A DNA stretch of 37,377 nucleotides from IMG/VR virus record IMGVR_UViG_3300037042_000468, positions 1 to 37,377 of that record; one strand, written 5' to 3'. This DNA is from a virus. A model generated the notes under the pieces. It saw only the letters and a list, made by a program, of their open reading frames with translations. It searched no databases and had not been told where the DNA came from. Position numbers and translations under genes: made by a program. This document shows, one piece after another, positions 2,187 to 27,007 of the stretch (position 1 is its first letter; every line of letters begins with the position of its first letter).

Positions 2187-2513
2187 ATGATCAGAGCATT
2201 AAAAGCATTAAAATTTTTCATACGGAACTATGAATGGGTTAATGAGCCTAAATGGGAACATGAAGATGAGAAGGCATGGACTGGATTTCTTGCAACTCCA
2301 ACAGGCCGCAAGTTAAGCCTTATTTTGCTTAATCTTACTATGCGTCAAAATGCATCTGCTGTTATGAATAAATCTGATGAACTTGCAAACTCATGTGGCC
2401 ATGCTAAAGGATTTCGAGGTTGTGTAGCGGTTCTCGAATCGCTTGCAGCCTCAAAACTAAACTCAGCCATCCAAGACGGCATGGATGGATCTGATGAAAC
2501 TGCCGTCAACTAA
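2187..2513 (+). CDS. Hypothetical protein, 108 aa, upstream of scaffold
   Basis: Not recognised. The start at 2187 lies eight bases after the HNH stop; the frame is open further upstream but would overlap the HNH gene. The protein begins with a short basic/hydrophobic helix (ALKALKFFIRNY), carries several aromatic residues and ends acidic (MDGSDETAVN). Two Cys (SCGHAKGFRGC) are spaced like a possible metal or disulfide pair. Small proteins of this size are frequent between portal and scaffold genes. A hairpin with arms CTACAG/CTGTAG follows at 2520-2540, before the scaffold ribosome site. Confidence 0.6.
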   Translation: MIRALKALKFFIRNYEWVNEPKWEHEDEKAWTGFLATPTGRKLSLILLNLTMRQNASAVMNKSDELANSCGHAKGFRGCVAVLESLAASKLNSAIQDGMDGSDETAVN

Positions 2514-2562
2514 CCTGTTCTACAGAATGACTCCCTGTAGGGCGGTGTAAGAAAGGGTCAAA

Positions 2563-3537
2563 ATGGCGGAATTGAATAACCCAACCGAGGCGGAAGTCTT
2601 GGCTTTGGCTAGAGCAGCAGATGAAGGCGTGGATTACACACCAGCACCAGTTGCTTCAGTTGAAACAAGCGGAACCGAATCGGAGAAGGCCAGCGGAGAT
2701 AACTTGGAGCAACCCGCGACTCCCGAAACCACCGAAACCAAATCCACGTCGATTGATGTGGTGACGGATGAGGTCCCTAAGACTGAAACCGTTTCAACCA
2801 AAAGTTCTTTAACAGAGCAATCTGATGAACCCAAGTCAGAGTCGGCTTCCGAAGAAAAGAAGCCAAGCAAGTACCAAAGGGCTCAGTCTCGACTCGCAAA
2901 GGAGTGGGACGATGTCAAAGCGGAACGAGCAAGACTCCAAGCTGAAAGGGAGGCACTTGAAGCAGCCAAGGTTGCAAAGGCTAGTCAAGCGTCTTCTGAA
3001 GCAGAGACAAAGGGAAACAGTCGCAAGTTTAGCGCGGAAGATTATCGGGAAGCGGCAAAAGGCTACCGTGATGAAGGCCGTGACGATCTTGCGAAACTCG
3101 CTGAAAACAAAGCCAGCGAGATTGAGGTAGAGGAAAAGAAGGCGTTTGAGCAGAAGGTGCAGACTGAAATGAAGTCTGCCTGGGATAAGAACCTCATGGA
3201 AGAGGTCGATTCCAACCCTGAACTCAAAGACTCTTCAACTCCACTCTACAAAGCTGTTTCCGATCTGCTACAACGGCACGCGATTCTGCGGAACTATCCC
3301 GCTGGAATCAAAGATGCTGTTGGTTTGGCTAAGATGCATTTGAAGGCGGAAACCGCCTCTGGCTTGGAAAAGAAGATTGCGCAGTACGAGTCCGAACTGA
3401 CTCGACTGAGAAAAGCTACGACTCCGGCGAACAGTCAGCCTTCGGCTCCTGCACGTCAGAAGCAGTTCCATGAACTTTCCAGCAAGGAACAGGAAATGGA
3501 ATTGCTGAAGATGGCAGCAGAAGCTGATCGTGCCTAA
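2563..3537 (+). CDS. Capsid scaffolding protein
   Basis: A 324-residue, highly charged, low-complexity protein just before the major capsid gene. The N-terminal 100 residues are acidic and rich in Thr, Ser, Glu and Pro. Residues about 100-170 form a strong predicted coiled coil (runs such as ERARLQAEREALEAAK), and a second helical, Lys-rich segment sits near the C terminus, where scaffolds usually bind coat protein. Composition, length and position all fit a scaffold that shapes the procapsid and leaves before or during packaging. The start is preceded by AGAAAGGG at a good distance. Confidence 0.8.
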   Translation: MAELNNPTEAEVLALARAADEGVDYTPAPVASVETSGTESEKASGDNLEQPATPETTETKSTSIDVVTDEVPKTETVSTKSSLTEQSDEPKSESASEEKKPSKYQRAQSRLAKEWDDVKAERARLQAEREALEAAKVAKASQASSEAETKGNSRKFSAEDYREAAKGYRDEGRDDLAKLAENKASEIEVEEKKAFEQKVQTEMKSAWDKNLMEEVDSNPELKDSSTPLYKAVSDLLQRHAILRNYPAGIKDAVGLAKMHLKAETASGLEKKIAQYESELTRLRKATTPANSQPSAPARQKQFHELSSKEQEMELLKMAAEADRA

Positions 3538-25773: not shown

Positions 25774-25952
25774 TGCAAGTCGAGGCCAGAGATCGCCTCA
25801 AGTGGGCGCGCGATTGCCTTCTCAATGCTCGCAATAGGCTGGCAGTTGAGAGGGATCGCGCGACTCACGGAAGGTCAATTGACATTATCCAGATCATTAC
25901 TCTGGTTGATGCTGCTTCTTTGGTATGCAAGGAGGTCATAGGAGAACAATGA
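25773..25952 (+). CDS. Small helical protein, 59 aa
   Basis: ATG overlaps the previous stop as TAATG; the stop overlaps the methyltransferase start as ATGA. Sequence (VEARDRLKWARDCLLNARNR ... ITLVDAASLVCKEV) is two amphipathic helices. Not recognised. Couplings at both ends support it as coding. Confidence 0.55.
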   Translation: MQVEARDRLKWARDCLLNARNRLAVERDRATHGRSIDIIQIITLVDAASLVCKEVIGEQ

Positions 25953-27007
25953 AATACTTATCCGTATGTTCTGGTATTGAGGCAGCGTCAAAGGCTTGGG
26001 AGCCTATCGGATGGTAGCCTGTTGCATTTTCAGAAATAGAACCCTTTCCGTCAGCGGTGCTGAAGCATCATTGGCCGGAAGTACCAAACCTAGGAGATAT
26101 GAGTAAATATGAACAATGGAATATACAAAGCGGATCAGTTGACCTTCTGGTCGGAGGAACGCCCTGCCAATCCTTTTCAGTCGCAGGACTTAGGCAAGGA
26201 CTCAAAGACCCAAGAGGAAACCTTATGCTTACATACCTTGCAATCGCTGAACGTTTCAAACCTAGATGGCTTGTCTGGGAAAATGTCCCTGGTGTCTTGT
26301 CATCTAACGGAGGAAAAGATTTTGGTTCCTTCCTCGGAGCGTTGGGGGAGTTGGGGTATGAGTGGGCATACCGAGTGCTGGACGCTCAATGGTTCGGAGT
26401 GGCCCAAAGACGCAGACGTGTGTTCGTTGTCGCACATCTTGGAAAAGGGAACCTTGCCGCAAAGGTTTTATTTGAGTCCGAAAGCGTGTGCAGGGATACT
26501 GCGCCGAGCCGAGAAGCGGGGCAAAGGATTGCCACAGATGTTGAAGCAGGCGCTGGAAGCGGTGAAGGAGTAGGTGCATTTAGGATGCAGGCTTTCGGTG
26601 AGTACGCCGATGATGGAACTGCCTCGGCCATGAAAGCTAGGGATTACAAGGATGCGACTGATTTGATCACGTCGCCAGTGGTAATTGACCGCGCGGCATT
26701 CAACCAAGGTCAGAACGCGCAATACAAACCGCATATTGAGCACAGCGAGACGATGGATTCGTTGGTGGCTAGGGGGCCGCATGCAGTTTCTGTCCCGGCG
26801 GATCGGATGGCCGTCCGCCGTCTCACGCCAAGAGAATGCGAGCGACTGCAAGGATTTTCCGATGACCACACTTTAATCCCTTGGCGCAACAAGCCAGCGG
26901 ATCAATGCCCCGATGGGCCACGATACAAGGCTCTTGGAAACTCGATGGCTGTGCCGTGCATGGCTTGGATTGGAAAAAGGATTGACGCGGTTGAGAAAGC
27001 TAAATAG
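25949..27007 (+). pseudogene. C5-cytosine DNA methyltransferase interrupted by an amber codon
   Basis: The frame from ATG 25949 (behind GGAGGTCATAGGAGAAC) encodes the phage Dcm start MKYLSVCSGIEAAS...EPIGW, then meets TAG at 26015-26017 (codon 23), then resumes with PVAFSEIEPFPSAVL. All remaining motifs are intact: GGTPCQSF (catalytic Cys at codon 73), WENVPG (codons 110-115), QRRRR (153-157), a variable target-recognition region, and RRLTPRECERLQGF...KALGNSMAV at the end. Only motif I is cut off. A restart at GTG 26057 would lack the SAM-binding loop and should be inactive. A sequencing error, a real nonsense mutation or host amber suppression are all possible. Confidence 0.75.
26109..26573 (+). 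CDS. Overprinted ORF inside the cytosine methyltransferase gene
   Basis: A 154-residue frame, +1 to the methyltransferase, with ATG 26109 about a dozen bases after AGGAG. It is not a random shadow: NNGIYKADQLTFWSEERPAN at the start and PQRFYLSPKACAGILRRAEK near the end resemble a protein I recall from many phages beside or within Dcm-type genes (pattern L-T-x-W-x-E-x-P, then S-x-K-A-C-x-G-I-L-R-R-A-E-x-R-G). Meanwhile the methyltransferase frame over the same bases keeps its own motifs. Function unknown; C-terminal basic helices suggest nucleic-acid or methyltransferase binding. Recall of the family is unverified. Confidence 0.6.
   Translation: MNNGIYKADQLTFWSEERPANPFQSQDLGKDSKTQEETLCLHTLQSLNVSNLDGLSGKMSLVSCHLTEEKILVPSSERWGSWGMSGHTECWTLNGSEWPKDADVCSLSHILEKGTLPQRFYLSPKACAGILRRAEKRGKGLPQMLKQALEAVKE

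Follow-up and report, generated by a model that had tools for sequence, protein, structure and literature searches.

The C5-cytosine DNA methyltransferase gene (alpha) of the viral contig IMGVR_UViG_3300037042_000468, whose 37,377 bases are called the window here, contains a second gene, beta, that is nested within it in the +1 frame. Comparison among its relatives shows beta to be a real gene, with purifying selection acting on both frames. Phages commonly have this arrangement, which is almost never annotated. We consider it likely that the locus encodes a C5-cytosine methyltransferase made of two polypeptides from nested out-of-frame genes, with beta completing alpha in trans. This subunit model is proposed because of the nested homologous frame, the constraint on both frames, the exclusive co-occurrence of the two proteins, the complementary distribution of one protein segment and the loci in which beta is naturally fused to the methyltransferase half with motifs IX-X. 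The features of the locus are collected in Table 1.

Table 1. Features of the nested methyltransferase locus (window positions unless another record is named)
Feature	Position	Strand	Remarks
alpha, C5-cytosine DNA methyltransferase gene	25949..27007	+	ATG start; TAG at codon 23; PF00145, PHROG_116
In-frame TAG in alpha	26015..26017	+	codon 23; unique to this record
alpha downstream open frame	26057-27007	+	316 aa
AGGAG, possible beta ribosome-binding site	26092..26096	+	12-nt spacer; also codes alpha L-G-D
beta, nested gene	26109..26573	+	154 aa, ATG; +1 frame relative to alpha; PHROG_16143 E=1.5e-14
alpha motif IV (PCQS, catalytic Cys)	26162..26173	+	read from translation; conserved in A2
alpha motif VI (ENV)	26279..26287	+	read from translation
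alpha motif VIII (QRRRRV)	26405..26422	+	+1-frame DILE segment of beta starts directly behind
beta residues 106-142 (SLSHILEKGTLPQRFYLSPKACAGILRRAEKRGKGLP)	26424..26534	+	one-chain methyltransferases carry segment in frame, motif VIII to target-recognition domain
alpha motif IX (RRLTPRECERLQGF)	26816..26857	+	read from translation
P1 beta-like +1 frame within dmt	L087 2246-2737 (P1 66710-67201)		ends in beta signature

The alpha frame matches the C5-methyltransferase profile PF00145 (E=8.2e-47) and PHROG_116 (E=3e-79), and motifs IV, VI, VIII, IX and X can all be read in it. The first-pass annotation of this DNA, made from the letters alone, had named the ENVPG and QRRRR motifs, both of which are present, but had started the gene too late, at 26057; the frame begins with the ATG at 25949, though it is interrupted at codon 23. 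Because a TAG intervenes there, motif I is cut off from the remaining motifs, and in this record it does not share an open frame with the rest of alpha. Motif I is intact in those relatives whose alpha was read.

That two plus-strand frames are open at once over 26109-26573 is borne out by the ORF and by the alpha translation, while the +2 frame of the same stretch holds 10 stops. To gauge chance, synonymous codons of alpha were permuted and the +1 frame was then checked for stops. It stays open over the overlap in 0.24% of shuffles of the window alpha and in 0 of 5,000 shuffles for each of MM1, CHPC1175, K453, Drs3, P0092 and SpSL1. The corresponding figures are 15% for Sinorhizobium NV1.1.1 and 8% for Phoebus, which means that a GC-rich case taken by itself should not be given much weight. 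The AGGAG that had been suggested as a ribosome site for beta is present and is kept in close relatives, but its spacer is long and its bases double as the codons of the conserved alpha L-G-D, so it is only partly independent evidence. An ATG with a Shine-Dalgarno-like match occurs at the beta start in 144 of 223 loci, and a start codon of some kind in 221. The protein pattern that the first-pass annotation had associated with phage genomes, LTxWxE.P ... ACxGILRRAEKRG, does exist: ACxGIL[RN]RA is matched by more than 600 IMG/VR stretches that encode relatives.

Selection was assessed in 42 distinct close sequences by sorting the distinct changes according to their effect on alpha and beta. The rate was 0.498 for changes silent in both frames, 0.138 for those silent in alpha but altering beta, 0.106 for those altering alpha but silent in beta, and 0.034 for those altering both; in the upstream flank that codes for alpha only, the silent rate was 0.375 and the altering rate 0.057. 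Changes that alter beta show about 3-fold suppression regardless of their effect on alpha (P=1e-6 and 1e-3, approximate values that count distinct alleles as independent), and those that alter alpha are suppressed 4- to 5-fold. Heterozygosity at alpha third positions is 0.235 upstream versus 0.095 in the overlap among 47 close relatives, and 0.295 downstream of it in 10 sequences; at alpha first positions, which are the third positions of beta, diversity goes up from 0.055 upstream to 0.097 in the overlap. In 13 distant lineages the similarity of the +1 frame to the window beta exceeded that of synonymous-codon shuffles (z 2.1-7.1), and in 11 of these none of 1,000 shuffles reached the observed value. 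The P1-like dmt genes gave a weak signal in the same direction, with a rate of 0.099 for changes silent in alpha and altering beta versus 0.198 for silent changes in the upstream flank. The codon-substitution check that had been proposed thus points to constraint in both frames and not in alpha alone; together with homologues found without exception in the +1 frame of Dcm-type genes, this supports the original suggestion of dual coding. To our knowledge, long same-strand overlaps with demonstrable constraint on two frames have rarely been documented in dsDNA phages.

Homologues of beta are abundant, and each occupies the +1 frame of a Dcm-type gene. With the window beta as tblastn query, matches were found in 211 phage records and in 532 plasmids, mostly of P1 type, and a Lactococcus-phage beta as query found 238 phage records. 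The hosts of the phages with beta belong to the Proteobacteria, Firmicutes, Actinobacteria, Cyanobacteria and Verrucomicrobia, and include an archaeon. When HMMs were used for both proteins, beta lay in the +1 frame of a C5-methyltransferase at 166 of 166 loci and never alone, which supports the idea that the two genes are locked together; the annotated phage records that were inspected agree, and most of the methyltransferases sampled by way of alpha have a beta. A candidate free-standing beta in CHPC1042 was rejected as an internally deleted remnant. Among close relatives, only one has a stop in beta, a TAG at codon 15 with alpha intact (L024, 2501-2962). CobraSix has another stop within the N-terminal half of beta, and P1-type betas do not have the N-terminal part, so this part, at least, is dispensable.

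Among the records inspected, both frames are annotated only in MM1, P0092 and pST. The dmt genes of P1, P7, SJ46, RCS47 and a Leclercia plasmid contain an unannotated +1 frame of 160 or more codons that ends in the beta signature; the P1 record gives the cytosine activity of dmt only as 'perhaps'. In Streptococcus phage MismyG (L173, 1763-2845), a CDS called 'IS1595 family transposase' overlaps a beta match in its +1 frame and is therefore a methyltransferase gene, the label being a likely misannotation. PHROG_864, a family named 'DNA primase' with 1064 positions, matches alpha at 691-864 (E=3e-48) and is probably either a primase-methyltransferase fusion or a mislabelled family. The literature that was searched gave no account of such nesting in phages, an absence that is not proof of novelty. 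As far as that literature shows, what is new here is the breadth of the arrangement, the two-frame constraint, the complementary segment distribution and the hidden betas of P1 dmt and SpSL1.

The first-pass annotation had called beta an unknown partner, which is wrong: the protein is already catalogued as a beta subunit, and a structural role is likely for it. The profile of PHROG_16143, a family named 'DNA methyltransferase' that corresponds end to end to MM1 orf14 (E=1e-83), matches residues 30-125 of the window beta, and beta has the nesting in the +1 frame of a C5-methyltransferase that goes with the MM1 type. Searches of beta against Pfam, NCBIfam, PDB sequences and Foldseek gave nothing significant at the levels tested, and matches to histone and kinetochore proteins were dismissed as chance. 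The N-terminal two thirds of beta resembles nothing known and is likewise constrained. An AlphaFold2 model of beta alone is confident only at residues 107-153, a helical C-terminal stretch of 47 residues, and is of low confidence over the remainder; no fold match for the model was found. Low confidence outside the C-terminus would be expected if the remainder folds on a partner, though a shallow alignment would account for it too.

A clue to the role of beta comes from its C-terminal signature, LSDILE-(V)-x-x-(F/Y)(F/Y)LS-xx-AC-x-GILRR-AEKRGK-x-LP. Across 239 loci with a recognisable motif VIII, the DILE...YYLS motif was present in the +1 frame only at 203, in the alpha frame only at 12, in both at none and in neither at 24, although many of these loci are close relatives and do not amount to 215 independent observations. 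In the +1 frame the distance between the motif and the motif VIII start is 7 residues at 200 of the 203 loci. Alphas without a beta carry LxDILE..VDEKYYLS in the same chain, 28-56 residues behind motif VIII. When the one-chain enzyme L252 is aligned to M.HhaI, the segment falls on HhaI VKDLLLPDSEVEHLVID (about 190-208), which lies between motif VIII and the recognition domain. The beta C-terminus resembles the in-frame segment over a short stretch only (HMM, 15-18 bits). The best explanation of these sequence relationships would be that the C-terminus of beta is the segment that one-chain methyltransferases hold between motif VIII and the target-recognition domain.

Variant arrangements bear on this assignment. 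In L122 the alpha frame (2024-2704) ends behind motif VIII, while the beta ORF (2202-3179, 325 residues) extends in frame across the recognition region as far as motifs IX-X; in L263 the beta ORF likewise continues in frame to motif IX-X, in part, and the alpha frames of both are without motif IX. These fusions place the beta C-terminus where the subunit model puts it. PHROG_1008 was suspected from its matches to be a fusion of beta with the C-terminal half, but it is not matched by the fused protein of L122. Lucky2013 and Phoebus also have a C-terminal methyltransferase piece in the beta frame, there as an ORF of its own. Loci of the Staphylococcus phage IME-SA4 type (L166 and L202) have DILE in the alpha frame, yet keep about 114 codons of a beta-like +1 frame upstream; they look like an evolutionary intermediate and could also be a reversion. 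The m5C gene of SpSL1 is active in vivo, with 102 of 113 sites methylated in phage DNA (PMC6755750). This gene (cds15; its record prints the site as RCRGC) contains at the corresponding position a beta that is intact but unannotated (L343, 1390-1887), so that an active enzyme with an intact beta frame gives indirect support for function.

The likely scheme is as follows. On the alpha chain lie the SAM-binding and catalytic motifs I-VIII, then a variable target-recognition region, and after it motifs IX-X. We infer that beta is initiated inside alpha from its own ATG in the +1 frame, overprinting the motif IV-VIII region, and that it most likely associates with alpha to complete the junction of the catalytic and recognition domains in trans. 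Both chains would then be needed for methylation, as in M.EcoHK31I, and the likely use of the complex would be the modification of phage DNA against host restriction. The arrangement may go back to an out-of-frame deletion behind motif VIII by which the segment was shifted to the +1 frame, accompanied by internal initiation.

It seems rather improbable that beta is an independent protein, such as a methyltransferase regulator or an anti-restriction factor, that simply rides on the alpha gene. Such a protein would fit with a constrained N-terminal part unlike anything known and with the beta-like frame kept by the IME-SA4-type loci even with DILE in alpha. Against it stand the exclusive occurrence of beta with C5-methyltransferases, the fact that other methyltransferases contain, as a piece of their own, the part of beta that is conserved best, and its fusion to motif IX-X in two loci. 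Programmed ribosomal frameshifting near motif VIII could also give a fusion of alpha motifs I-VIII to DILE with no internal initiation, and the fixed distance at which DILE directly follows motif VIII speaks for it. However, about 100 codons of the +1 frame upstream of motif VIII are open and constrained, which frameshifting would not need, and the start codons and Shine-Dalgarno-like matches at the head of beta also speak against it; we regard this explanation as very improbable. That the +1 ORF is a by-product of alpha codon bias and conservation, and not a gene, draws on the open +1 frames often seen in GC-rich methyltransferases, as in Sinorhizobium NV1.1.1 and Phoebus. It is already refuted, and we give it next to no credence, unless all the tests above were misled by alignment or sampling: silent and altering changes in the beta frame differ at a fixed effect on alpha, 13 lineages exceed their synonymous shuffles, and low-GC Firmicutes phages have open frames where none of 5,000 shuffles does.

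A separate question is whether the locus works in this phage. It is possible, though somewhat doubtful, that alpha is a dying gene here and the locus non-functional in this phage, whatever its role elsewhere. The TAG in alpha is found in this record alone, its position being a sense codon (E, K, Q or R) in all relatives with the N-terminus read; no suppressor tRNA was found in the window; and a product restarted at GTG 26057 would be without motif I. On the other hand, the TAG is a single-base change within a metagenome assembly, where a sequencing or assembly error is equally possible, and beta, which is unaffected by it, and all sequence 3' of it are intact. Stop-codon reassignment was rejected, as no tRNA genes of any kind were found in the whole 37,377-base window and relatives have no TAG there. 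The codon is treated as a local mutation or an error, either a recent inactivating lesion or a fault of sequencing or assembly.

The odds seem even that these enzymes form a very old and widespread phage class, among them the enzymes of P1 and SpSL1 and of many phages of streptococci, vibrios and mycobacteria, that was made obligately two-chained by out-of-frame deletion and internal initiation. If so, hundreds of annotated 'single' phage methyltransferases are half-annotated, and a recoded alpha expressed alone would wrongly score as inactive. Since nearly all records checked annotate alpha only, phage methyltransferases studied from a codon-optimised alpha alone may look dead. The second frame would also gain a concrete structural role, and P1 dmt and SpSL1 make the role of beta directly testable.

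Among known systems, the closest is that of Streptococcus phage MM1 1998 (DQ113772, orf13/orf14), in which alpha and beta subunits of a C5 methyltransferase are annotated and beta occupies the corresponding +1-frame position inside alpha. These subunit labels are the annotation of the record. MM1 beta is homologous to the window beta (tblastn E=5e-10; PHROG_16143 as in Table 1), but MM1 belongs to a Firmicutes branch and its alpha is about 38% identical to that of the window in the overlap. The window locus is filed with the MM1-type alpha/beta pair and not with the M.EcoHK31I family because its alpha has a motif IX of its own. Lee, Kam and Shaw reportedly described in 1995 that the small gene of M.EcoHK31I lies inside the large one in a different frame. 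In M.EcoHK31I (YGGCCR) two polypeptides are needed for methylation, the larger holding motifs I-VIII and X with the target-recognition domain, and motif IX is found only on the small one (PMC3404938); its likeness to the window locus lies in the two-polypeptide layout, compared by description only. One-chain enzymes (M.HhaI and phage L230, L231 and L252) share the motif order of alpha and carry a DILE-type segment in the same chain, but their +1 frame is not open and they have no beta. M.AquI (CYCGRG) is also a C5 methyltransferase split into two chains (PMC3404938), but its small chain is the C-terminal half, whereas in the window motifs IX-X belong to alpha, and beta lies nested within it. 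Only L122 and L263, whose beta frame runs on to motif IX-X, resemble the M.AquI split in having these motifs on the small chain.
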